From: a virus
Virus record (IMG/VR): IMGVR_UViG_3300042296_000310
Span: 1-47,541 of that record
Direction: 5' to 3' (one strand)
Length of the DNA stretch: 47,541 nt
The notes beneath the pieces were generated by a model that was not told the DNA's origin, did not search any database, and was given only the letters and a program-made list of their open reading frames with translations. Shown here piece after piece: positions 5,561 to 25,078 of the stretch. The position numbers were made by a program, and so were the translations under genes. Position 1 is the first letter of the stretch, and each line of letters begins with the position of its first letter.

Positions 5561-7035
5561 CCGTTAGGCGAAGTAAGTAGTCGTGAATCGTATCCCGACG
5601 TAGCGTCATAGTGTAAACCACTGCTTACAAGAGTCCCATCAGGATTTTTTATTCCCGAGACTCTCCTTCGTGCAGTAATTTTATCAAACAGTTCTGTAAG
5701 TCCCCACACTAGAGCATCAACTCTATCTGGTGATCCGGTAGAAGAGTTACGTACGTTGTCCACTGAGAACAAGCACATTTGATCTTCTAACTTCTCGAAC
5801 ATTCCTACGTGATGTACTCGACCTTGTTCGTACAAAGCAGAGATAGGTTCTGCCCGGACAACCTTACCACGCGAAGCGTGAACCAGTTTAATGGGAACAG
5901 AGCGATCTTGTGCACGAATAACCGAAGCTACCATGTCACCGCCATTGTTCTTTTCTGCTATGATTTTATCAGCCTGCCACTTTCGGTACAGACGTACAGC
6001 TTGTGAAGCCCATTCTTCAGGAGAGCCTTTTAAAGTCCCGTCCTCCAACACGTATCCACGAGCGTACCCGTCTTTATCCCGAGCCAGACCCACAACCACG
6101 ATACCATTTTCATCACTGTTTTCTTCCGATGATGCAGCAGGGTCAACTGCTACATATACTCTTTCTAAATCAACGGGAGCTTCCTTGACCCTTGAATTGT
6201 CGATAGTGTCTCTGTTCCACAGTGCTCCAGGAATGTCTCCAAGAACCTCTCCTTCAAGTTCCTGCCGTCCAAGGCGTGTAGACCCATACCGGTCGTACAA
6301 TTGTTTGAGGGTATTTGCGGCCAAGTTACCGGCATTATCCAAAGTGGACCCTCTGGTAACGATTGTATCTTCATCTGTCATTAGCCTTTTAACAAGAGGC
6401 AAGGGACGAGGAGTAGTGGTTACTAGAACCCTAGGGTGTTCACCCAGACGCAAACCAAACTGCAACTGGTCCCAACACTCTTGCATGTATCGGAATTTAG
6501 CTAACTCGTCAACCCATCCAGCGTGATGCTGTGGTCCACGTAACTGGTCAGGTTCTGTAGCATTGTACAAGAAAGCTACTGCACCATTTGGCCAGGTAAG
6601 CTTTCGATTGGTTTTTTCGTATACGGGTCGATAATCTTTAGGGTGACAAGCAAGGATTCCAGACTCACCCTCAACCATAACATCTCTTGCGTCGGCTGCT
6701 GTCTCAGCAACAAGAGCAATTCGTCCCCATCCAGATGCGCTCCGGCTAAGAGGTGTGTCACCACAGATGTTTTTTCTGATCCACTCACTGCCGATCCTTG
6801 TCTTACCAAATCCACGTCCAGCTAGAATCATCCATGTGTTCCAGAGACCCTCGGGTTCTACCTGATTAGGTCTTGCCCAGAAATCCCAGTTCCACCGAAG
6901 GTCAGCCCTCTGCTTCTCGGTTAGAGAGGCCAGCCACTCCTGACGCTCCTCCTCGCTTAGAGAGGCGAGCAATTGCGCTTTCGAGAGCTGCATTGTCTTC
7001 TCTGACTCGCTGCTCATATTCAATGTTGCCGTCAA
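5548..7035 (-). CDS. terL: Terminase large subunit (ATPase and nuclease)
   Basis: This is the packaging motor, 495 residues. Walker A is GRGFGKT (73-79) and Walker B is WVDE (174-177, D176/E177). A coupling-type TTTPR lies at 206-210. The RNase H-like nuclease half has acidic candidates D298 (VAVDPAAS), E361 (IIAEKNN) and D440 (DRVDALVWG). The 7035 start is TTG with AGGAAG six bases upstream. In-frame ATGs at 7017 and 6993 are alternatives. The N-terminus overlaps the small terminase gene by 134 bases if TTG is used, a long overlap that hints at a later start or strong coupling. Confidence 0.93.
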   Translation of the reverse strand: MTATLNMSSESEKTMQLSKAQLLASLSEEERQEWLASLTEKQRADLRWNWDFWARPNQVEPEGLWNTWMILAGRGFGKTRIGSEWIRKNICGDTPLSRSASGWGRIALVAETAADARDVMVEGESGILACHPKDYRPVYEKTNRKLTWPNGAVAFLYNATEPDQLRGPQHHAGWVDELAKFRYMQECWDQLQFGLRLGEHPRVLVTTTPRPLPLVKRLMTDEDTIVTRGSTLDNAGNLAANTLKQLYDRYGSTRLGRQELEGEVLGDIPGALWNRDTIDNSRVKEAPVDLERVYVAVDPAASSEENSDENGIVVVGLARDKDGYARGYVLEDGTLKGSPEEWASQAVRLYRKWQADKIIAEKNNGGDMVASVIRAQDRSVPIKLVHASRGKVVRAEPISALYEQGRVHHVGMFEKLEDQMCLFSVDNVRNSSTGSPDRVDALVWGLTELFDKITARRRVSGIKNPDGTLVSSGLHYDATSGYDSRLLTSPNGWMA

Positions 7036-7444
7036 TTTTTACTTCCTGTTTCTCAATGAACATCCCAAGATGCTTGGCCAGGAGTTCGTAGCCACGGAGG
7101 GCAGTTGTTAGATTAGCTTTTTCACCGTCTTCTGACTTATTAATCGTACGGAGGATTCCTCGTAAGACGTAGTCGATGTCGATGTGTGTTTCTTTCGAAC
7201 GCTCTGCTAAAAGGTGGTCGATATAAGGTCGAACACCGGCTGCGTTAAGAACTTGATGTCCCATTCGTGATGCGTTCTCAGCTGGAGTGTCATATCCGGC
7301 CTCTAAAACTGCCTTGGCACCATTAAAATGCTTGATGAATGAGTGGCAAAAATTGCGTTGTTTAAAAGACAGAGCATCTTCAATAAGCGTAATGTCTTCA
7401 GACTCTAAAGCCCTGTCCATTTTAGTTTTTCTTATGTCGCCCAT
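6902..7444 (-). CDS. terS: Terminase small subunit (Terminase_2-like)
   Basis: The 180-residue product has the helix-turn-helix pattern of Terminase_2 proteins: LSFKQRNFCHSFIKHFNGA, then AVLEAGYDTPAENASRMGHQ and VRPYIDHLLAERS. This DNA-binding domain selects the packaging site and recruits TerL. A helical middle for oligomerisation and a charged tail follow. It is the first gene of the leftward late block, 27 bases downstream of a perfect sigma70 promoter (7471-7499). ATG 7444 is preceded by AAAGGG. Confidence 0.88.
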   Translation of the reverse strand: MGDIRKTKMDRALESEDITLIEDALSFKQRNFCHSFIKHFNGAKAVLEAGYDTPAENASRMGHQVLNAAGVRPYIDHLLAERSKETHIDIDYVLRGILRTINKSEDGEKANLTTALRGYELLAKHLGMFIEKQEVKIDGNIEYEQRVREDNAALESAIARLSKRGGASGVAGLSNREAEG

Positions 7445-7470
7445 GATACCCTTTCCATACCTTATACCGT

Positions 7471-7499
7471 ATTATACCATATTTCCCTACAAATGTCAA
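7471..7499 (-). promoter_or_regulatory. Sigma70 promoter for the late leftward block
   Basis: Read on the minus strand: TTGACA (7499-7494), a 17-bp spacer (7493-7477) and TATAAT (7476-7471), all 12 consensus bases. Transcription would start near 7464, about 20 bases before the terS ATG. It shares the string TTGACATTTGTA with the promoter at 25050. Confidence 0.85.
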
Positions 7500-8189
7500 G
7501 TAAAAACGTACAAATAGTATAGGGAGTTCGTACAAGAAGGTTCTTCTAGGCGTGGGGCGACCTACGGGAGCCCTTTCCAATTGTCAACAATACCCTCTAT
7601 TTGCCCCGGAAACAGGGTCTACAGTTACATGTGGATACCTTCGGCTACCATAGTAGCTAAACTACTGTTGATATATCTTAAATAGGCTTTTTTTTATTAT
7701 GAATTTTTTTATTTCGTGACTAAGGTCCCTACTTACGCCTTATATACGCGCGCGTGTTCTATCCCCCCCCCACCTGCCCCTATCGGAACAAACCAAGAAC
7801 AAAGGAACAAATTGTGAACAAGGCCAGTCATACGCAATAAAATTACAACACAGTGTAACAATACAACAATCCAGCCAGTATATACGCAATTTAACCATAT
7901 AAATCAATGCCAACGCAATAATCGTGCTTAGTCGCCGTGGTCACGCGTAATAATGTTGCGCCGCTTCCGTGGTCACTTGTAATAAAGTAATGCGAATCGT
8001 TCTTAACACAACAATCTTTCAATCCCACGCAATAAAGTTACAATGAACAGCATATTCACGTAATAATCATGCTAAAATAGGTTGAAAAAAGACATTTACT
8101 TTCAGTTTCGACAAGCCCATAAAGATTGGGCAGCAGGGGACCACTGAAAATTGGGAAGGTGCTCTGCAAACTAGATAGGAGACTATGTT
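7500..8189. other. Divergent intergenic region, probable replication origin
   Basis: No gene is supported in this stretch between the two divergent transcription blocks. From left to right it holds T-tracts (T8 at 7688-7695 and T7 at 7704-7710), a 17-nt perfectly alternating pyrimidine-purine run (7741-7757) that includes ACGCGCGCGT, a C9 tract (7763-7771), four GAACAA copies at 7786, 7797, 7805 and 7816, and a series of ACGCAATAA-type repeats (7832-8066). AT-rich, repeat-rich DNA at the strand switch is typical of phage origins and early control regions. I found no consensus sigma70 promoter pointing right here. The origin call is inference. Confidence 0.5.
7832..8066. repeat. Iteron-like degenerate repeats, ACGCAATAA type
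   Basis: Related motifs begin at 7832 (ACGCAATAA), 7884 (ACGCAATTT), 7913 (ACGCAATAA), 7943 (ACGCGTAATAA), 7974 (ACTTGTAATAA), 8027 (ACGCAATAA) and 8058 (ACGTAATAA). Successive spacings are 52, 29, 30, 31, 53 and 31 bp, so most copies lie about three helical turns apart. Two copies sit in a longer direct repeat starting CCGTGGTCAC (7935-7944 and 7967-7976, 32 bp apart). The arrangement suggests a cooperative DNA-binding array such as iterons or operators. Confidence 0.6.
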
Positions 8190-8537
8190 ATGGCTACTCG
8201 TAACGATAGGCGTCGCAAGGCTTTGGCTAGGCGTCGTGAATTGGAACAAGCCGTTAGTGAAGCGTTTGCTTTAGAGCAAGCCAAAATTGATGCCAAGGCG
8301 GCAAGGGAAAAGTTATTAAGTGACTATCCCGAAAATGCTAGGCGTTCACCTAATCACATAGGCGTATCCCGAATTGGCAAGATTGTGCGACTAGGCAATC
8401 GCAAGATGTTCAAAGCGCAAGCGGTTGAATATGTTGCGCCAAGAGGGAGACTATCTGAAAAAGAATTAGCGAAAGCTAGGTTGACCGGATTATTCGGTGA
8501 AGCTATCAGACGCCCTATCGGTAAATCCAAAAGATAA
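8190..8537 (+). CDS. Small basic early protein, unknown
   Basis: The 115-residue product is strongly basic, with an Arg/Lys-rich N-terminus (NDRRRKALARRRELEQ) that is probably helical and a C-terminal half containing SRIGKIVRLGNRKMF. TAGGAGA precedes the ATG. It is the first rightward gene after the repeat-rich origin region. Its charge would suit nucleic-acid binding, but I recognise no family. Being first in the early block, it could be a host-takeover or origin-binding protein; that is only inference. Confidence 0.65.
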   Translation: MATRNDRRRKALARRRELEQAVSEAFALEQAKIDAKAAREKLLSDYPENARRSPNHIGVSRIGKIVRLGNRKMFKAQAVEYVAPRGRLSEKELAKARLTGLFGEAIRRPIGKSKR

Positions 8538-8936
8538 ACCGATTGAAACAAATTGTTGATAACGCTACGGCTTTAGAGCTGGAAGGCGTTTGATACGCCC
8601 ATAGATAGCAAGGTTACGGCCTAGCAAGTGTCAATATATTGCGCCTAGCGTATATTCTTTGACTAGCTTGCATATAGGTTGCTTGTTCTATCAAGAAACG
8701 TGCCATGCAGTATGCTCTTTAGACTAAGTTTTAAAACATACGGTGGCGGTGTAATGACTATAATCCTTGGCAGGGATAGTGAATTATGCTGGCGGCAATC
8801 TGTAAGCCCGTCGAACGATGTATAAAGCGGCTCTCCAAAATTATGGATACAGAGCCGCCCTAGCGGGGAAATTGTATCTTCATTGGTATTGTTTCCCTGC
8901 TAGGCATAAGGCTAGGGCTTTATCGGAGTAAACCCT
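8538..8936 (+). other. Non-coding, structured leader region
   Basis: No convincing gene in 399 bases. Two clear dyads are present. GCGGCTCT (8827-8834) pairs with AGAGCCGC (8851-8858). CTAGCGGGGAAA (8860-8871) pairs with TTTCCCTGCTAG (8892-8903) with one mismatch. A 37-codon frame (8819-8932) overlaps both but lacks a ribosome-binding site. The hairpins lie just before the small gene at 8937 and may be mRNA processing or translation-control elements. Confidence 0.5.
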
Positions 8937-9230
8937 ATGTTATATAATCGCGCCTCTTATCAGCCTATCAATGGTAATATGTCACTAAAAAAGACTGTTG
9001 CACCTAAGCGGCCTTTCTTATTGTTTAAGAATAAAGAAGGTTTAACATTCACAAAAGCAGTTACGGCATCAACATTGCGTATGATTGCTAAGCATAACAG
9101 TAAATTGACTTCAACTGATATTCTAATCGACCTATTGCATGGCAACACTTTCAGAATTGCCAACGGCGTTTCAGTGACGATAACTTATCGCTAATAAATC
9201 AATCAATCAATCCCTAGCCTTATGCCTAGC
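8899..9230. repeat. 19-bp perfect inverted repeat flanking a small gene
   Basis: GCTAGGCATAAGGCTAGGG at 8899-8917 is the exact reverse complement of 9212-9230. The arms enclose the whole gene at 8937-9194. The right arm is followed by a second dyad, AATAAC (9231-9236) with GTTATT (9243-9248). The left arm overlaps the 8860-8903 hairpin, so alternative folds compete. Possible roles are a long-range mRNA stem closing the gene in a loop, paired protein-binding sites, or the ends of a mobile cassette. Confidence 0.75.
8937..9194 (+). CDS. Small early protein, unknown
   Basis: The 85-residue product is basic in its N-terminal half (SLKKTVAPKRPFLLFKNKEG). No family is recognised. GGAG at 8925-8928 is correctly spaced for ATG 8937; an internal Met at 8982 is an alternative. 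The gene sits wholly inside a 19-bp inverted repeat (8899-8917 and 9212-9230), so it may be a self-contained cassette or be translated under control of a long-range RNA stem. Confidence 0.6.
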   Translation: MLYNRASYQPINGNMSLKKTVAPKRPFLLFKNKEGLTFTKAVTASTLRMIAKHNSKLTSTDILIDLLHGNTFRIANGVSVTITYR

Positions 9231-9270
9231 AATAACGCTAGGGTTATTGATGGAATAGGATAAAGTTATC

Positions 9271-9900
9271 ATGGCTACTACCTTAAAAGCAATCGACAAT
9301 AAAATTGCAACATTTTCGACTAATCGGGCTAAACTACAGTCACTTGGTCACGAAATTGCAATGTTGATTTTCATGCACGCTGCGCCTACGCAAATATCAG
9401 ACGATTGCTCTGGCACTGGCGATTGCACTCGTGCTGTTAAGCTAGCTGCACAGATGCCTAAGTCATGGCAGACGCAGCTTGAAAATTGGTTCAAGGCTTA
9501 TACACCTATTCGTATTGTTACCAAAAATAACAAGTGCGAATATGCCCCCAAGTATAAAGCAGAGAAGGACGTTGACGCTAAACTAGCTTTCTGGAAGCTA
9601 GAAGAAGCGAACAATAATCCTTTTTACGGCTTTGAAGAACCCGAGTCCGCAAAAGAAAGCCCTACACTCGCACGATTGCTTGCGATGATTGAAGGGCTTG
9701 CGGGTCGTATTGACAAGCTGGCTGATAAGAAAGAAGCCGAAGGCGGTGTTATTGACGCCGACAAGCCGCAAGCGAAGATGGTCGTCGCAGCCCTAAAAGC
9801 GATGGATTTTAGCAAAATTAAGGCGTTAGCGACTGCCGCTGCTGCTAACGATAGCGCGACTACTGATGATGATGTAGAGGGCGCTTCCAAGGCGGCATAA
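9271..9900 (+). CDS. Early protein of unknown function
   Basis: The 209-residue product begins with a helical segment (ATTLKAIDNKIATFSTNRAK). The middle holds DDCSGTGDCTRAVKLAAQMP and the tryptophan-rich SWQTQLENWFKAY. The C-terminal third is Ala/Lys/Asp-rich and low in complexity (ATAAAANDSATTDDDVEG), so it is probably disordered and acidic. Proteins of this layout occur in early regions of T7-like phages of alphaproteobacteria, but I cannot assign a function. A strong 12-bp hairpin (9925-9951) lies 25 bases after the stop. Confidence 0.65.
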   Translation: MATTLKAIDNKIATFSTNRAKLQSLGHEIAMLIFMHAAPTQISDDCSGTGDCTRAVKLAAQMPKSWQTQLENWFKAYTPIRIVTKNNKCEYAPKYKAEKDVDAKLAFWKLEEANNNPFYGFEEPESAKESPTLARLLAMIEGLAGRIDKLADKKEAEGGVIDADKPQAKMVVAALKAMDFSKIKALATAAAANDSATTDDDVEGASKAA

Positions 9901-10663: not shown

Positions 10664-11215
10664 ATGAACATCTTTCTCACTGACCCATGTCCACGTCAAT
10701 GCGCTATCAATCTTGACGACAAGCGGGTGAACAAGATGTTGCTTGAGACTGCACAACTGTTGTCGGCTGGTCTTGTATTGCGTTCTAGGCGACTAGGTTT
10801 AGAGTCTCCCAAGGGTTTATATAAGAATACCCATATCAATCATCCTTGTGCAGTCTGGACGCGCTCTTCACGTGCTGCGTTTTGCTGGATGCTTGAGCAT
10901 GGGTTTGCATTAGCTGACGAGTATGCTTATCGCTATAATACTAGACGGCGTGACAAGTCATTACTTGATGATAATAGATATTATGACCATGCCTGTATGC
11001 GTATTCTTGATATTGCTGGGGCTAATTATAATATGTTGTTTCCACTTGATGATTTACCTCTAATCTTTAACTTTAATTCGTCGGGGCAGAATAGTGGCAT
11101 TTCTGTGTTCCATGACTACCAGTTGTGTATGTCTAACAAGTGGATGAATTTAGACAAGGCAAAGCCACTCTTTACTCGACGCAACCGCCCTTCTTTCTAT
11201 ACTCTAATTAAATAG
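10664..11215 (+). CDS. Conserved phage protein, possible pyrimidine-dimer glycosylase-like
   Basis: The 183-residue product opens with NIFLTDPCPRQCAINLDDKR and continues VNKMLLETAQLLSAGL, then HINHPCAVWTRSSRAAFCW. A Met-Ile/Phe-x-x-D, (D/N)K-(R/H)V-x-KM-x-LE-TAQLL layout occurs in phage and cyanophage proteins that annotation often links to the pyrimidine-dimer glycosylase superfamily. A repair role is therefore possible, but I cannot place catalytic residues. AGGTGAC precedes the ATG. It lies in the early operon next to genes of unknown function. Confidence 0.5.
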   Translation: MNIFLTDPCPRQCAINLDDKRVNKMLLETAQLLSAGLVLRSRRLGLESPKGLYKNTHINHPCAVWTRSSRAAFCWMLEHGFALADEYAYRYNTRRRDKSLLDDNRYYDHACMRILDIAGANYNMLFPLDDLPLIFNFNSSGQNSGISVFHDYQLCMSNKWMNLDKAKPLFTRRNRPSFYTLIK

Positions 11216-12003: not shown

Positions 12004-12032
12004 ATTATACCACACTTTGTCACTGTTGTCAA
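12004..12032 (-). promoter_or_regulatory. Perfect sigma70 promoter pointing left, antisense
   Basis: Minus strand: TTGACA (12032-12027), a 17-bp spacer and TATAAT (12009-12004). It lies in the gap between two rightward genes and points against them, into the 3' end of the gene at 11530-11946. No convincing leftward gene follows. The -35 box lies in a palindrome, TTGTCAAGACAA (12026-12037), which may bind a regulator. An antisense or small RNA is the likely product. Confidence 0.75.
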
Positions 12033-13163: not shown

Positions 13164-14123
13164 ATGCTCATTAAAGACCTTGAGTTTAACCCCACGTTTA
13201 CTGATACTCAATATGATAAGTGTATCGAGTTTTTTGAAGAAGGTCCTGAAATAGTAATCGATTACTGCACTAAATACATTATTGTAGGTGACACAGTATT
13301 AATAAATGCTCCTGCCGCTTGTCACCAGGCTCTCGGCAGCCATACAGTCAAAAACGTAACTCTTGTTGCTACAGAAATAGCCTTGGTTCGTCGTAATCTA
13401 CAAAATTGTGATGGTGCGATGGAGTTTTTAGATTGGATGCTTAATCATTCATTCGCCAGTAGGTTTATTGTCAACAAACCAGAGCATCGCACTCTTGAGT
13501 GGGTATCTAAAAACGGCATAATTGTATCCTCCGATGTTATGCAACCATTATTTCAAATGATTATGATTTTCTCTCGCTCTCATTCAGAGCGCAGCAGTAC
13601 GCAGTTTGCTAAATGGAAAGAATTGGTCGACGATGGGTTTGACCCACATTTTGCATATCAAGTATGTATGTGTGTAACGGCAGGTGGCGGTTTGCAAACT
13701 TTTCCTGATGAAGGTACTGTAACGACACGCACAGGCCACACAACAACCTATCTGCTAACTTTAAATAGTATGAAGATGTTTTGTGAAGGAGAGTTAGGTT
13801 CTTGTAAATACGAGACTCGTGCTTATAAGGTCAACAAGTCTATTTATGGATGCTTTGATTTGTTTCAAGAACAAACGAGAAAAACCTACAAAGATAATTT
13901 TGTAAAAGATTTGTTTAATCAGTGTCCTGATTTCAGATTGCGAATGAAAGCGTTTCGCAACGAGGACACAGCTGTTGAAGCGTATCGTCCACCAAATCCA
14001 TTCAAACGTCCTTCTATGGTTTATGAGAAAAACCCTGACGACGTAACTTATCAAGAGTATTTTAACGTAGTAATCCCTTACATGAAAGAGAAAGGTTTGT
14101 TTTATAATGCCCCCAACAACTAA
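13164..14123 (+). CDS. 319-aa protein upstream of the amidoligase cluster, unknown
   Basis: A soluble, mixed alpha/beta protein with several Cys (YCTKYIIVGD, CHQALGSHTVKN, QVCMCVTAGGG). No membrane segments and no recognised domain. It has a good ribosome-binding site (AGGAG) and overlaps the next gene, a class I amidotransferase, by 17 bases. That coupling places it in the same pathway unit. It could be a carrier, scaffold or novel enzyme of the cluster; this is inference from position only. Confidence 0.6.
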   Translation: MLIKDLEFNPTFTDTQYDKCIEFFEEGPEIVIDYCTKYIIVGDTVLINAPAACHQALGSHTVKNVTLVATEIALVRRNLQNCDGAMEFLDWMLNHSFASRFIVNKPEHRTLEWVSKNGIIVSSDVMQPLFQMIMIFSRSHSERSSTQFAKWKELVDDGFDPHFAYQVCMCVTAGGGLQTFPDEGTVTTRTGHTTTYLLTLNSMKMFCEGELGSCKYETRAYKVNKSIYGCFDLFQEQTRKTYKDNFVKDLFNQCPDFRLRMKAFRNEDTAVEAYRPPNPFKRPSMVYEKNPDDVTYQEYFNVVIPYMKEKGLFYNAPNN

Positions 14124-14868
14124 AGCACAAGAGCCCCGTAAGTGGGAACGTATTGATTTACCTGACTTTAACGGTCGAAAGGTTTTTGTTACTAACGGCG
14201 CTTTTTATTCACAGATTATATCTTTGATGGCTTCTTGTGGAATGGAACGAGCCTCCACTGTCAAAGACGCTGACATAGTGGTGTTTTCTGGTGGTGCTGA
14301 CGTTAATCCAGCTCTTTATGGACAAGAGTCTTTGCGTGAAACATCTTGGTCTGTTGACCGTGATGACGCAGAAATAGCTGTATATAATGAAGCAGTGGAG
14401 TTGAACAAAATATTGTTCGGCATTTGTCGTGGTGCACAGTTCATTCATGTTATGAACGGTGGTCAGTTATGGCAGCATGTTGAAGGACATGGAGGCACGA
14501 ACCATCTTATCACTGACGTTGAGGACAACTATCAGGTAGTCTCCAACTCTATTCACCATCAGATGTTGATGGAGAATGAAGACATTGAGATTGTGGCAGT
14601 TTGCTCTACTCAAGTATCTTATAAGTTTTTGTGTGACAGTATGTCGGAAGAGTTGTTTGATAATGAGACCATGCTTGAGATTGAAGCAGGGTATTATACA
14701 GATGACCGCTCGTTCTTTGTTCAAGGTCATCCAGAAGTAGGTTCTGACGACTATCGTTCATGGTCTATGAATAAACTTTACGACCACGTTCTTGAGTGGG
14801 AGGTGTTCGACCAAGAAGATTTGGACGACGAAGAAGATTTATACACAGTATCGGAGGAAGTAAACTAA
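14107..14868 (+). CDS. Class I glutamine amidotransferase-like / gamma-glutamyl hydrolase (peptidase C26-like)
   Basis: The 253-residue product has the class I GATase layout: FSGGADVNPALYGQES is the oxyanion-side loop, the nucleophile elbow is GICRGAQ with C107, and the catalytic dyad is H208 and E210 in GHPEVG. The opening SGGxDxxPxxYG is typical of gamma-glutamyl-GABA hydrolase relatives (peptidase C26). It would hydrolyse a gamma-glutamyl or other amide bond, or deliver ammonia. The C-terminus is very acidic. Its stop overlaps the next ATG (TAATG at 14866-14870), coupling it to a class II amidotransferase. Confidence 0.85.
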   Translation: MPPTTKAQEPRKWERIDLPDFNGRKVFVTNGAFYSQIISLMASCGMERASTVKDADIVVFSGGADVNPALYGQESLRETSWSVDRDDAEIAVYNEAVELNKILFGICRGAQFIHVMNGGQLWQHVEGHGGTNHLITDVEDNYQVVSNSIHHQMLMENEDIEIVAVCSTQVSYKFLCDSMSEELFDNETMLEIEAGYYTDDRSFFVQGHPEVGSDDYRSWSMNKLYDHVLEWEVFDQEDLDDEEDLYTVSEEVN

Positions 14869-16304
14869 TGTGTGGTATTGTAGGTATGGCCGGCAAGATA
14901 AATCTTCTTGCTAAGAACACATTGTTCAAGGACATGATGGACGTCTGTCAAATACGTGGTCGTGACAGTGCTGGTGTAATCAAGGTCCGCAACGACGCAG
15001 ACCAGTCATATACATGGGTCAAGGCTGTTGGACCGCCGTCTAATCTGTTTGACTATCGCAAGTATGAGTCAGAGATTGAGCGTGGTGATGCAGTCGCACT
15101 CATTGGTCACACTCGTTCACGCACAGTGGGTGATATCAACCTTAAGAACGCCCATCCTTTTGATTATCCTGATGAGGCGATTGTAGGTGTTCATAACGGG
15201 ACTTTGCGAGAGCATCACACTTTAGACGGCCATGTTTATGGTAAAGTAGATAGCGATATCTTGTACGGACATCTTGCTAAAAACGGCGCAGAAGAGACTT
15301 TTAATGTGGTCAAAGGAGCCTACGCTTGCGTGTGGTGGGATGGCACTAAAAAGACTCTTAACTTTATCCGCAATAATGAACGACCTTTGTGGTTTACTTG
15401 GTCTAAAGACATGGAAATGATGTTTTGGGCTTCTGAAATCTGGATGTTTGGTGCAATTGAGCGTAAGCTAGATTTGTGGAACGGTATTAAGGACGACGGC
15501 GAGGGCAAATATATACAGATAAAACCTCATTCGTGGTGGGCTTTTACTATCAATCCTAAAGCAGTAAAAGACGAAGCCGTCCTTACAATGAAGCCTCAAC
15601 GGACTATTGAACCTAAGGCCGAGCCTGTCCGTTACACTGGTAATTATGGAGTGCAAGGAGGTAAGAGTTGGACTCGTGACCCCCTAGATGGAGACTGGAA
15701 GCCGAATACAGGAGGAGAGGTAACTAACCCTTTTCGGGTAAACAATCTCGACGACGAGGTAGAGGACATACTTCCGTGGACGGCGGAAGGACCGCCACCC
15801 CACCTCGACCTAAAGGCTACCATTGGCAATCCGGCAGAGTCTGGGAATACAAACATTGGCAACGTATCTTTCATGAAGACTTCAGTGAAAGACTCGGCTT
15901 CCTCAACGGACACGAGTTCTTCGCCTCGATTTCCGAAAAAGATTCTTTGCCTTCCTCCCAAGAATTTGCAGAACTCTCCGCCAATCAGCAAAAGAAAGCC
16001 CTTAGGCGAATTAATAAAGTCGCCCGGAAACATCGTATCTCTTTCCGAACAACGGAAACCCCCCCTGCTGCCAGTGTCGGTTAGAGAAGTTAAAAAAGTT
16101 GGCATGTTTATCCGAGATAACCTCAAGGGTATTGAGTATAGTGTTGAGGAGTTTGAACAAAACACTAAAGGTATCTGCTGTCACTGCAAGGAACCAGTAG
16201 GAGACCTATCTGAAGTTCATGAATTTATTAATGAACGTAATTTTATTTGTACGACTTGCGTAACACCTAATGAAGTAGTAGTTCCCACTTTTGTTTATAA
16301 ATAA
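14868..16304 (+). CDS. Class II glutamine amidotransferase with C-terminal zinc ribbon
   Basis: Translation starts at ATG 14868, giving MCGIVG: removal of Met exposes the N-terminal nucleophile Cys, the hallmark of Ntn class II GATases. RGRDSAG, IGHTRSRTVGD and GVHNGTLREH are the glutamine-site loops as in GlmS/PurF-type domains. The GATase domain spans about 1-210. Residues about 300-405 are Pro/Ser/Lys-rich and likely disordered. The end carries a zinc ribbon, CCHCKEP and ICTTC. No synthase domain is fused, so ammonia is presumably passed to a partner encoded nearby. The linker DNA also holds a long open frame in +2 (15776-16084). Confidence 0.85.
   Translation: MCGIVGMAGKINLLAKNTLFKDMMDVCQIRGRDSAGVIKVRNDADQSYTWVKAVGPPSNLFDYRKYESEIERGDAVALIGHTRSRTVGDINLKNAHPFDYPDEAIVGVHNGTLREHHTLDGHVYGKVDSDILYGHLAKNGAEETFNVVKGAYACVWWDGTKKTLNFIRNNERPLWFTWSKDMEMMFWASEIWMFGAIERKLDLWNGIKDDGEGKYIQIKPHSWWAFTINPKAVKDEAVLTMKPQRTIEPKAEPVRYTGNYGVQGGKSWTRDPLDGDWKPNTGGEVTNPFRVNNLDDEVEDILPWTAEGPPPHLDLKATIGNPAESGNTNIGNVSFMKTSVKDSASSTDTSSSPRFPKKILCLPPKNLQNSPPISKRKPLGELIKSPGNIVSLSEQRKPPLLPVSVREVKKVGMFIRDNLKGIEYSVEEFEQNTKGICCHCKEPVGDLSEVHEFINERNFICTTCVTPNEVVVPTFVYK
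15776..16084 (+). CDS. Possible overprinted gene inside the class II amidotransferase linker
   Basis: In the +2 frame relative to the amidotransferase, a GTG start at 15776, with AGAGGA upstream, opens 102 codons. The product looks globular: aromatic-rich (GYHWQSGRVWEYKHWQRIF), then SANQQKKALRRINKVARKHR. The host frame here is low-complexity Pro/Ser/Lys sequence, as expected when a disordered segment accommodates a second coding frame. No homology was checked. The alternative is chance openness. Codon statistics or conservation of both frames in relatives would decide it. Confidence 0.35.
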   Translation: MDGGRTATPPRPKGYHWQSGRVWEYKHWQRIFHEDFSERLGFLNGHEFFASISEKDSLPSSQEFAELSANQQKKALRRINKVARKHRISFRTTETPPAASVG

Positions 16305-16316
16305 GGAAGGTATATT

Positions 16317-17219
16317 ATGAGTGCATTTACAATTGGAGCTGACCCTGAGTTGTTTCTTCGGGAGAATGGTAAAGCAATTAGTGCTTTTGGAATGGTCGAA
16401 GGTACTAAAGAAAGTCCCCATAAAACTTCTAACGGAGCATACCAAGTAGACGGTATGGCACTAGAGTTTAACATTGACCCAGTTAGCACTGTTGGTGCGT
16501 TTGAACAGTTCAATATCAACATCATCAAAACTATTCAAGAAATGAAGCAACGGGTATCTCAGAACAGTGATGTCAAGAAGTATACGTTCGCCATTCAACC
16601 TACTCAAGATTTTGATGAAAAGTACCTTGAGAGTCAGCCTGCTGCTGCGCTTGAATTGGGTTGTGACCCTGATTTTAACGCATATACTGGTGAAGAGAAC
16701 CCTCGTCCAGACGGCACTCGCACTTTCCGTACCGCGGCAGGACACATTCACGTAGGATGGGGTGCCAACATTCCGACTGACAATGAAGAACACCGTGAAA
16801 TTTGTAACAACTTTGTCAAGATGTTGGACGCTACTGTAGGTATGTTCATGACGTTTATTGACCGAGACCCTCGTCGGCGTGAGATGTATGGTAAGGCCGG
16901 AGCATGTCGTTACAAACCATACGGAGTAGAGTATCGGACACCATCTAACGTGTGGATTATTAATCGTGACCGCCGTGAAATGATGTATCTACTTGTTCAA
17001 ATAGCCATTGGAAAGATGCGTAACGGCATGTCTGTAATTGATTTGACTGGTTTGAGCGAGGAAGAGATACAACTTGTGATAAACACAGGAGACTATAAGA
17101 CAGCAAAACGTCTACTTGACCGTCAAGTAGGATTTGTAACAATGTGGAAGAAGATTTGTGAAGACAAGCGTCTCGTGAATCCAGCAAAAGAAACTGTCGA
17201 AGTTAAGGATGCGTTCTAA
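16317..17219 (+). CDS. COOH-NH2 ligase type 2-like amidoligase (phiEco32-type)
   Basis: The 300-residue product begins with FTIGADPELFLRE and continues GAYQVDGMALEFNIDP, the two glutamine-synthetase-fold strands with acidic metal/ATP ligands typical of the COOH-NH2 ligase type 2 family found in phiEco32-like phages. GHIHVGWG (around residue 141) and RDPRRREMYGKAGACRYKP supply further conserved His and Arg positions. The family is predicted to form amide bonds between a carboxylate and an amine using ATP. It has AAGGAAGG upstream and ends at the ATG of the next gene, in one operon with two amidotransferases. Confidence 0.8.
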   Translation: MSAFTIGADPELFLRENGKAISAFGMVEGTKESPHKTSNGAYQVDGMALEFNIDPVSTVGAFEQFNINIIKTIQEMKQRVSQNSDVKKYTFAIQPTQDFDEKYLESQPAAALELGCDPDFNAYTGEENPRPDGTRTFRTAAGHIHVGWGANIPTDNEEHREICNNFVKMLDATVGMFMTFIDRDPRRREMYGKAGACRYKPYGVEYRTPSNVWIINRDRREMMYLLVQIAIGKMRNGMSVIDLTGLSEEEIQLVINTGDYKTAKRLLDRQVGFVTMWKKICEDKRLVNPAKETVEVKDAF

Positions 17220-17890
17220 TGGCTGACATTTTCTGGACTGATTCTAATCAAGCGCGTGAGCGATTAGCCGGTACTGTTGTTTTGTATGATGGGCTGCCTG
17301 TTTTTATTTCTAACGTAGAGGATGGTGAAAACTTTAACGATGGTGTTCCCCGCGCCAACATTACTTTTTGTGGAGACACAGAAGGAAATCGTCAACGTAA
17401 GCGTCTTGACTCTCCTAAATTTAATAAGTTCCGTAGTTTACCTGAATTAGGTTGGTTGAATACTACCAAGTACGGGGCTATTTTACTTTCTCGTAAGGCT
17501 ACTCGCAGTAGATTACACGGCCTTAATTCTAGTAACATTAGCGGGCAGTTTTTTCGTAATATTGGCGTAGGAGAGTATTCACTTACGCCCTATGAACGTG
17601 CATGGGATGCTTTTTACAACTCATCTTCTTTTGTAGATTTGTGTAAAGATATATACCCCGCACTAGGAGATGTGCTGCTTAATGTACAAGAAGAAAGCGC
17701 CCTTGCTTTCTCACGCAAGTTTGTTGTGTATCGTGACACATTAGGGTTACGATGGTTGTATCGTGAGACAGAACGTATTGGTATTTTTACTAACTCCAAT
17801 TCTCTTAATCTTCTTGAGAAGTTCAAGTTCTATCGTGAAGAAATAATGAACGACCGCAAATTTACACTTGACAACATACAGGAGTATTGA
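17219..17890 (+). CDS. 223-aa amidoligase-cluster protein, unknown
   Basis: Located between two ligase genes and coupled to the upstream one by a shared TAATG. The N-terminal half has a beta-barrel-like pattern (GTVVLYDGLPVFISNVEDGE, PRANITFCGDTEGN). The C-terminal half is helical (ALGDVLLNVQEESALAFSRK). No catalytic motif is recognised. Its position suggests a substrate-binding or regulatory partner of the ligases. The final codons overlap a perfect sigma70 promoter (17868-17896). Confidence 0.6.
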   Translation: MADIFWTDSNQARERLAGTVVLYDGLPVFISNVEDGENFNDGVPRANITFCGDTEGNRQRKRLDSPKFNKFRSLPELGWLNTTKYGAILLSRKATRSRLHGLNSSNISGQFFRNIGVGEYSLTPYERAWDAFYNSSSFVDLCKDIYPALGDVLLNVQEESALAFSRKFVVYRDTLGLRWLYRETERIGIFTNSNSLNLLEKFKFYREEIMNDRKFTLDNIQEY

Positions 17891-17896
17891 TATAAT
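17868..17896 (+). promoter_or_regulatory. Perfect sigma70 promoter overlapping a start codon
   Basis: TTGACA (17868-17873), a 17-bp spacer and TATAAT (17891-17896). The -10 box overlaps the ATG (17895-17897) of the amidoligase gene, so RNA made from here would begin inside that gene and lack its start. It would mainly serve the ATP-grasp gene and beyond, or produce a shorter amidoligase from an internal start. Confidence 0.65.
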
Positions 17897-18887
17897 GTCT
17901 GATGGAAATACAGAGTTTTTTAAAAATTATCGCAAAGCTTTTGCCAAGAAGCCTGGTATTCCAGGTCTACATCTTAATCGTCCTTTGTATACAGGCAATG
18001 TTCCTGTAGGAACTATCGGACTTGAACTGGAAATTGAGGGTCGCAATCTTATTAATAATAGTGGCGATTTATTTGATATTACGGGACCTACTACCGCAGC
18101 ACGTTGGCTAGCTAAGGCAGACGGGTCATTGCGCAACGGAGGTATTGAATATGTTTTGTCTGTTCCTTGCGCAGTAGATGAGACAGCCGACCTTGTCAAA
18201 GGATTGTTTAAGAAGTTTAAGTCAGCTGGTTCTAAGATTGAGAATAGTAATCGTTGTTCAACTCATGTTCACATAAACGTAGGCGAACAGCGTATCAATA
18301 TCCTAACATCTATTCTTATATTGTGGGCAGTATTTGAGGAACAACTTATCAAATGGCACGGTATAAACCGTACTCGTAACCACTTCTGCCTAGGTTTTAA
18401 GGACAGTAATACCACACTTAACATGTGGAAAACACTTCTTCGTCACGGTCAATTACCACGAGAAGAAGGTGGTAAGTATTCTGCTTTGAATATTCTAACT
18501 TTGTGGCGCTTTGGTTCGTTCGAGTTTCGCTGTGGTCAAGAACCTAATGACCCAGAAAAGGTAATTATTTGGGCAAAGTTCTTGCATTACTTTGTTAAGT
18601 ATGCTATTTCTAATTACACTAATCCGTATCAAATTGCTTACGACATTTCTGAGCAAGGAGCTATGTTGATGCTTGAGAATATCTGCAAGCAAGACGAAGA
18701 ACTAGCTTCCTTTTACAAAGACATTATCGGCGAACAATTTGAACGACAGTTCAACGAGAGTTGCATGGAGTCTTTCCGAATTGTGCAATCCTTGTGCTTT
18801 GAGTTTCCTTGGAATGACTGGAACCCTTTGATTAACAAGCAGTATGTCCCAAACCCTTTCAGCAAAGCAAAGAGACCGGTCATGTAG
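17895..18887 (+). CDS. Amidoligase_2-type enzyme
   Basis: Starts at ATG 17895, with GGAG at 17881-17884; the frame also extends 9 codons upstream to a TTG that lacks a binding site. The 330-residue product matches the putative amidoligase family (Amidoligase_2): GTIGLELEIEGR (acidic metal ligands on the first strand), WLAKADGSLRNGGIEYVL, STHVHINVGEQ, and FGSFEFRCGQEPND. The fold is that of glutamine synthetase or gamma-Glu-Cys ligase; it should join an amine to a carboxylate with ATP. It is distinct from the ligase at 16317. Confidence 0.8.
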   Translation: MSDGNTEFFKNYRKAFAKKPGIPGLHLNRPLYTGNVPVGTIGLELEIEGRNLINNSGDLFDITGPTTAARWLAKADGSLRNGGIEYVLSVPCAVDETADLVKGLFKKFKSAGSKIENSNRCSTHVHINVGEQRINILTSILILWAVFEEQLIKWHGINRTRNHFCLGFKDSNTTLNMWKTLLRHGQLPREEGGKYSALNILTLWRFGSFEFRCGQEPNDPEKVIIWAKFLHYFVKYAISNYTNPYQIAYDISEQGAMLMLENICKQDEELASFYKDIIGEQFERQFNESCMESFRIVQSLCFEFPWNDWNPLINKQYVPNPFSKAKRPVM

Positions 18888-18928
18888 GTACTAGGTGGAT
18901 ACGTTATGGTATTATAGACGGTATAGGC

Positions 18929-19033
18929 ATGGTTGAAGAATTGGCTCAAAGATTAGAACAACAGGAACGACCGCACAACCGACCGTGGCATCTGGGACAA
19001 CTAGACCTAGGAGAGTTAGGCGATGTCGATTAA
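18929..19033 (+). CDS. 34-aa peptide between ligase genes, unknown
   Basis: ATG 18929 to TAA 19033, overlapping the ATP-grasp start (19023) by 11 bases. The product has a charged N-terminal helix (VEELAQRLEQQERP) followed by HNRPWHLGQLDLGELGDVD. It could be a small peptide substrate or a leader that couples translation to the ATP-grasp gene. No strong ribosome-binding site is visible. Confidence 0.35.
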   Translation: MVEELAQRLEQQERPHNRPWHLGQLDLGELGDVD

Positions 19034-19769
19034 AATTTATCCATACAAGCAGGGTTCTCGCTCTGCCCGTGCCCTTGCCGATGCTCTTGGGGGTCGCGTT
19101 TTGCGGCTCCAAGGGTCCACTTACAGATACCGTGAGCGCGATACAATTATCAATTGGGGTAATTCTACTGCTTTTAGATTTGATGAACAAATGATTAATT
19201 TTATAAATAAAAGTCATTTGTGTAGAGGTGCTTCAAATAAATTATCAGCATTTACTCAGATGTCTTTTGAAGGTGTACAAATCCCAGAGTTCTGGACTAA
19301 TAGAGAAGATATTCCTGACGATGCGTTCCCTATAGTATGTCGTACCATTCTTAATGGTCATTCCGGTGCTGGTATTGTTATTGCTAACAATCGCGGAGAA
19401 ATTGTAAACGCTCCTTTGTATGTAAAATATATGAAGAAGCGTGACGAATACCGTATTCATGCCGGTTTGCATGGTATCATCTCAATACAACGAAAGGCTA
19501 CACGCAATGGTGAACCACCTCTTGATACTCGCATTCGTAATCATAATAATGGTTATGTTTTTATACGTGGTGACGTTGCTCCTCCAGAACAAGTTATTGA
19601 ACAAGCTAGATTTGCAGTTAACAGCCTCGGCCTTGATTTCGGCGCTGTTGATATTATTTACAATCATCATTATCAATTAGCAACCGTTCTTGAAGTGAAC
19701 ACAGCGCCGGGGCTTGAGGGCCAGACAGTTATTGACTACGCCAATTATTTTAGGGAACATTACACATGA
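19023..19769 (+). CDS. ATP-grasp ligase (RimK/YheC-like)
   Basis: The 248-residue product has the ATP-grasp signature set: FPIVCRTILNGHSGAGIVIA (nucleotide-binding strand and Gly-rich loop), APLYVKYMKKRDEYRIHAG (Lys, Arg and strand with Glu), GLDFGAVDIIYN and the metal-binding TVLEVNTAPGLEGQT (E and N). It should activate a carboxylate as acyl-phosphate and add an amine, giving peptide-like products. GGAGAG precedes ATG 19023. Its last 4 bases overlap the next gene. With the two amidoligases it makes three distinct amide-forming enzymes in one phage operon. Confidence 0.85.
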   Translation: MSIKIYPYKQGSRSARALADALGGRVLRLQGSTYRYRERDTIINWGNSTAFRFDEQMINFINKSHLCRGASNKLSAFTQMSFEGVQIPEFWTNREDIPDDAFPIVCRTILNGHSGAGIVIANNRGEIVNAPLYVKYMKKRDEYRIHAGLHGIISIQRKATRNGEPPLDTRIRNHNNGYVFIRGDVAPPEQVIEQARFAVNSLGLDFGAVDIIYNHHYQLATVLEVNTAPGLEGQTVIDYANYFREHYT

Positions 19770-25049: not shown

Positions 25050-25078
25050 TTGACATTTGTATAAAAACTTGATATAAT
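25050..25078 (+). promoter_or_regulatory. Strong sigma70 promoter for the SSB gene
   Basis: TTGACA (25050-25055), 17 bp, TATAAT (25073-25078). Start near 25085, leaving a leader of about 48 nt before ATG 25133 with AAAGG as ribosome-binding site. High expression suits a single-stranded DNA-binding protein needed in bulk. Confidence 0.88.

Follow-up and report, generated by a model that had tools for sequence, protein, structure and literature searches.

The window analysed here is the entire virus record IMGVR_UViG_3300042296_000310 of IMG/VR, 47,541 bases long, in which two gene blocks diverge from an intergenic gap. Leftward from 7444 lie structural genes (terS, terL, portal and major head protein), and rightward from 8190 an early/replication block encoding a primase-helicase, a DNA polymerase, exonucleases and a ribonucleotide reductase. 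The gap between terS (start 7444, minus strand) and the first rightward ORF (8190, plus strand) is occupied by repeats, and a sequence-only reading that had described them at the divergence of the two blocks, and proposed a replication origin there, was right about their existence and their place. The features are given below, where L006 is the nearest differing relative (84% identical over 7.5 kb) and L064 a further relative, found by its motif (TerL 72%).

6902-7444, minus strand: terS, a Terminase_2 small terminase gene, downstream of the array
7471-7499, minus strand: consensus sigma-70-type promoter (12 of 12 positions) into terS
7555-7573, plus strand: possible RNA hairpin GGGCGACC-UAC-GGGAGCCC, also in L006 and L064
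7671-7710, plus strand: AT-rich stretch with two T-runs (7688-7695 and 7704-7710)
7763-7771, plus strand: C9 run (G9 on the terS strand)
7786-7800, plus strand: first GAAC-N7-GAAC box, putative, in the LexA-box form of Caulobacter (sequence match)
7805-7819, plus strand: second GAAC-N7-GAAC box, putative LexA-box form (sequence match)
7833-7847, no strand: palindrome site 1, CGCAATAAAATTACA, strong, identical in L006 (matrix)
7854-7868, no strand: palindrome site 2, TGTAACAATACAACA, weak in the window, clear in L006 (alignment, matrix)
7885-7899, no strand: site 3, CGCAATTTAACCATA, left half only, below matrix thresholds (L006 alignment)
7914-7928, no strand: palindrome site 4, CGCAATAATCGTGCT, strong (matrix)
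7946-7960, no strand: palindrome site 5, CGTAATAATGTTGCG, the strongest, identical in L006 (matrix)
7978-7992, no strand: site 6, TGTAATAAAGTAATG, weak (matrix)
8007-8021, no strand: site 7, CACAACAATCTTTCA, weak (matrix, L006 comparison)
8028-8042, no strand: palindrome site 8, CGCAATAAAGTTACA, strong (matrix, L006 comparison)
8059-8073, no strand: palindrome site 9, CGTAATAATCATGCT, strong, poorly kept in L006 (matrix)
8091-8122, plus strand: 32-bp block identical in the 84%-identical L006, the alignment ending at its right edge

Elsewhere in the early block, 14107-19769 holds genes with PHROG matches to a glutamine amidotransferase, a glutamine-fructose-6-phosphate aminotransferase-like protein, two amidoligase-type proteins and a RimK-like protein, which is unusual content for a phage early block. 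The 10664-11215 product has a Pfam match to Pyr_excise (pyrimidine dimer DNA glycosylase; 75% in the relative).

Upon aligning the region with L006, we found that the repeat unit is a 15-bp interrupted palindrome, CGCAA-N5-TTGCG, taking the form CGYAA-N5-TTRCG in the window, and not ACGCAATAA as had been proposed. The consensus is cleaner in other phages, CGCAA-(T/C/G)A(A/T)T(A/G/C)-TTGCG (119 sites). The window has nine site positions at 7833-8073, five strong and four weak, lying about two or three helical turns apart. The seven motifs counted earlier correspond to cores at 7833, 7885, 7914, 7946, 7978, 8028 and 8059, although at 7885 only the left half is present, and their spacings, given before as 29-31 or 52-53 bp, measure 52, 29, 32, 32, 50 and 31 bp. 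The weak palindromes at 7854 and 8007 fill the long gaps, so that the nine sites are spaced 21, 31, 29, 32, 32, 29, 21 and 31 bp, and what had appeared as a 32-bp direct repeat consists of CCGTGGTCAC and the site after it, recurring at a 32-bp interval.

The motif ACGYAATAA occurs six times in the window, four of them within the array region, against 0.87 expected, and none of 100 shuffles reached six. A matrix built from 119 sites at 27 other loci, with the window lineage excluded, places six window sites in one 300-bp cluster with a score of 82.3, compared to a maximum of 21.6 in 200 first-order Markov simulations. The sites of one motif are thus clustered in a single intergenic control region, as in an operator array, and they are repeated in phase, as are iterons. 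Across 76 adjacent spacings from 30 loci, which are not independent inside one array, we observe phasing near 10-10.7 bp (R 0.43-0.44; Rayleigh p 4e-7 to 1e-6). Positions 6 and 10 of the site are complementary in 26% of cases compared to 37% after shuffling, which points to a site bound by a dimer on double-stranded DNA, and a hairpin or single-stranded DNA signal was ruled out on this ground. The half-sites lie 10 bp apart centre to centre with dyad symmetry, and this distance, together with the phased copies, suggests helix-turn-helix dimers on one helix face.

Conservation in relatives, which had been named as a check, bears the repeats out, since they are kept in L006 and the matrix from other phages recovers the window cluster. 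Identity to L006 is 83% inside the sites and 71% between them. Per 250 bp, the shared sequence is 76-94% identical up to 8122 and then absent for approximately 1.1 kb, with 60-80% on the early side wherever longer stretches align. The end of conservation at 8122, just past the array, indicates that the array goes with the late module. The product of 8190-8537, earlier named as the candidate binder, has no Pfam or PHROG match, and tblastn (E <= 0.01) found nothing matching it in the searched contig pieces of L006, a relative that keeps the repeats, a 409-base gap lying outside the search; this speaks against it in that role.

Several further elements adjoin the array. The four GAACAA units reported earlier are present and are really two tandem GAAC-N7-GAAC boxes; none of 2000 local shuffles reached two, and both boxes are kept in L006 although their seven-base spacers differ. 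The accessible part of PMC12700426 gives GTTC-N7-GTTC as the Caulobacter LexA motif. The pair, as putative LexA boxes, resembles this alphaproteobacterial form in being two exact tandem direct-repeat matches kept in a relative; such boxes occur beside the arrays of the window and its relative only, with none at the other 34 of 36 loci. The consensus promoter into terS is also found in L006 and L064. Perfect TTGACA-17-TATAAT matches number five in the window, at 17868, 19975 and 25050 (plus strand) and at 12032 and 7499 (minus strand), and the one at 25050 is similar to the region of the terS promoter (77% over 48 bp).

The sequence of contig L005 stops at the C-run (7762), which might mark a virion end but which a homopolymer could also cause. 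G/C-runs lie within about 100 bp of the array or inside it at 12 of 32 loci, compared to 0.08 per kb in other phage DNA; as this enrichment is absent under a local Markov shuffle, we put no weight on it. The folding energy of the possible hairpin is only modestly better than that of shuffles. Its conserved form is GGGCGACC-UNC-GGGAGCCC, the loop base varying among the window, L006 and L064, and in L064 a consensus promoter pointing toward the array is located upstream of it. No Rfam match was found at E up to 5 across 7400-9300, and a structured RNA was rejected, the leader (z -1.9 in the window, plus strand; -0.8 in L006) folding little better than shuffles.

In viral contigs, a two-site pattern of the motif, used as the sole criterion, gave 63 stretches, 12 of which have at least three sites within 350 bp, including the relative itself. 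Arrays hold 3-12 perfect or near palindromes each, and most of the 20 records scanned have a single array. In a set selected solely for TerL homology (the best 80 of 243), an array lies upstream of terL in 14 of 80, one of them having an array downstream as well, and in 12 of the 53 with at least 1.5 kb of upstream sequence. Of the 38 TerL relatives that are of the window's own kind and have sufficient upstream sequence, only the window species and its relative carry the array. A de novo palindrome search upstream of terS at 66 TerL-B loci, with no motif supplied, recovered CGCAA-N5 at eight loci and a different register of it at two more, compared to no locus of 66 with four or more copies in the shuffled control; a few other palindromes with at least four copies also appeared (e.g. 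L277, L306 and L310).

Array-bearing phages are apparently mostly those of alphaproteobacteria. They include a cultured one, Rhizobium phage RHph_X2_26 (host Sinorhizobium americanum), with three sites 21 and 31 bp apart, which emerged as a weak BLAST lead (E = 10) and was then confirmed by the matrix. No array was found in the examined stretches of 13 out of 13 annotated relatives (RHph_Y25, TM3_3_14B, CRP-811, CGphi29, Shpa, SIO1, RHph_Y3_1, NV1.1.1, CRP-821, RHph_N2, Strzyga, ctuI7215 and CRP-6). Carriers and non-carriers are intermixed on the TerL and TerS trees, with 9 and 11 changes in array presence, respectively, against shuffled means of about 12 and 16; well-supported branches force only 4 changes (TerL) and 1 (TerS), the scatter on the trees being weakly supported. 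This mixed presence suggests that the array is a trait gained and lost.

We recognised terS at 24 of the 36 array loci, and the array is 5' of it in all 24, at -52 to +699 bp in 21 cases and at 2.2, 2.8 and 6.7 kb in the others; seven of these loci came from a scan of the DNA upstream of terL and the TerS profiles drew in part on the same TerS proteins, so that the independent part of this count is smaller. The position of the array tracks the terminase/late module and not the replication genes. A packaging-initiation site (cos or pac) would be expected to adjoin terS in this way, the array then being a cosB-like terminase assembly site, possibly aided by a host DNA-bending protein (e.g. IHF). 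The array keeps its side of terS also between co-directional genes (G007, G008 and G012), and in RHph_X2_26 the order is an HNH endonuclease gene, the array and then terS, which begins about 0.5 kb further on, past the record start. In HK97-like phages, cos is located between the HNH endonuclease gene and terS. Stimulation of cos cleavage by the HNH protein gp74 is described in the available portion of PMC11331095.

The same motif, however, stands before three TerS families (19, 3 and 2 loci), where a packaging site should be specific to its own TerS, and close TerS relatives often have no array. The Terminase_2-like TerS proteins are 13-35% identical to that of the window, apart from the 94% relative. 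One motif before three such unlike families makes TerS an improbable binder and a factor whose specificity stays constant a more probable one. Furthermore, the recognition sequences of HK97 and P22 are not palindrome arrays: for HK97 TerS it is a single G with an A-tract, and for P22 the pac site, 22 bp long and asymmetric, in the sources as far as available. Lambda-type cosB, with R sites plus an IHF site, shares with these loci the repeated sites 5' of terS and an IHF-like site beside some arrays, IHF-consensus sites being over-represented in the group as a whole (8 sites at 7 of 36 loci against about 1 expected; none in the reversed control). It differs in that the palindromes here are common to unlike TerS families and in that no exact IHF match lies near the array of the window or its relative. 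Overall, we regard a packaging site as rather unlikely.

The replication origin of the sequence-only reading, in which a dimeric initiator would bind the palindromes as iterons next to an AT-rich element for unwinding, seems to us clearly improbable. A conserved, repeat-based cis-acting locus does stand, whereas the origin loses ground because the array follows terS and not an initiator gene. The window lineage resembles iteron origins in its phased symmetric repeats and an AT-rich neighbour (88% AT over 40 bp at 7671, in the window and L006; the T-tracts noted earlier are there) as in ori-lambda, and semi-palindromic iterons as in the PLE1 origin, going by the accessible portions of PMC7466680 and PMC8263062. 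The AT-rich element is not general, with local AT-richness unusual (null fraction <=0.05) at only 3 of 30 loci. The cumulative GC skew, proposed earlier as a check, has its minimum at 8.0 kb, at the array, which divergent gene orientation alone could give, and among 11 larger records (linear, partly gapped) the minimum lies no more than 1.5 kb from the array in 4 and farther off in 7. There is no enrichment of DnaA boxes beside arrays (2 observed vs 0.84 expected), and the replication genes differ among carriers, the primase of RHph_X2_26 lying about 25 kb from its array. A primase family is nonetheless common to 10 of 25 array records, and a link may exist.

This count comes from phmmer clustering of the 25 array records, many of them fragments, in which TerS and a primase group occur in 10 each and no other family in more than 7. 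Such a distribution counts against a phage-encoded regulator as binder, a reading that we consider very unlikely and that would require the protein to be too divergent or small for sequence clustering. The stricter two-site pattern favours a viral factor, as chromosomal arrays are rare: in the genome collection 5 of 33 stretches have three or more sites, compared to 27 of 35 viral stretches (some being the same virus twice). ParB/parS was discarded as a candidate, PF02195 (ParB_N) occurring in 0 of 12 records.

The strict site was found in 25 of 385 alphaproteobacterial genomes, with 33 sites compared to 4 in a reversed-pattern control. Of these 33, 23 fall inside ORFs of at least 80 aa, and a few intergenic ones lie near metabolic genes. 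A looser pattern occurs in 234 of the 385 genomes, so weak chromosomal targets may exist. No chromosomal regulon emerged in the 385 genomes, which may not include the true hosts, and the motif was not found there to be that of a host regulator. A host regulator should have chromosomal targets, and the missing regulon therefore counts against a host factor. In the alphaproteobacterial genome G303 (loci L223 and L311-L314), the only one with as many as five strict sites, these five palindromes lie within an apparent dispersed hairpin repeat with a GCTTCTGAAAGG-like flank and are probably unrelated to the phage arrays.

The reading we favour, though tentatively and at somewhat less than an even chance, is that the array is an operator for a dimeric DNA-binding protein gating the terminase (late) operon. 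The binder, judged from the site, is probably of helix-turn-helix type, recognising CGCAA-N5-TTGCG, and is perhaps host-encoded, in the manner of the CtrA arrays of other phages of alphaproteobacteria. Dimers would bind the phased sites along one helix face and form a compact nucleoprotein complex, which would gate the operon, and the two LexA-box-like elements next to the window's array would add DNA-damage input. The phased, conserved motif, its terS-side place and its co-inheritance with the terminase/late module support an operator, whereas the gap of about 330 bp that separates the window's array from the consensus promoter of terS is wide for an ordinary one. A broader form is possible but doubtful, namely that one undescribed, host-conserved DNA-binding protein recognises the array before unrelated terminases, and that the array has been gained repeatedly as a checkpoint on late genes or packaging, linked to the state of the host.

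The nearest precedent is the CtrA-site array of Brevundimonas phage vB_BsubS-Delta, for which the accessible text of PMC9437464 describes a divergent gap of 1,312 bp holding 12 CtrA sites, with terminase genes beginning the adjoining structural module. Both have many sites for one dyad-recognising regulator in a large divergent gap beside a terminase-led module. The motifs differ (CGCAA-N5-TTGCG here, TTAA-N7-TTAA for CtrA, with only one match to the latter near the 36 arrays), and here no host regulon was found. Arrays of sites for regulators, initiators or terminases are already known kinds. In the open literature, as far as its text is accessible, the exact motif matched only an unrelated single Lactococcus site; among the matches listed, none for the half-site strings was about phages, and nothing on the motif appeared under terS-upstream repeats, cobavirus origins or cos/HNH. 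The motif and its wide terS linkage therefore appear undescribed.

That phages whose terminases and replication modules are unlike have one cis-element in common points to a shared trans-acting factor, and finding this binder would show how these phages time terminase expression or packaging. The motif is a ready probe for it, one carrier, RHph_X2_26, being cultured.

Site pairs 29-39 bp apart also occur in Bacteroidota, with a spacing near 38 bp recurrent (L124, L127, L129-L134, L136, L137 and L141, and further L143, L145, L147-L149 and L155). Finally, two arrays of exact tandem units coincide with contig ends, one of 18-bp units in L175 (1-293) and one of 36-bp units in L178 (6140-6278).
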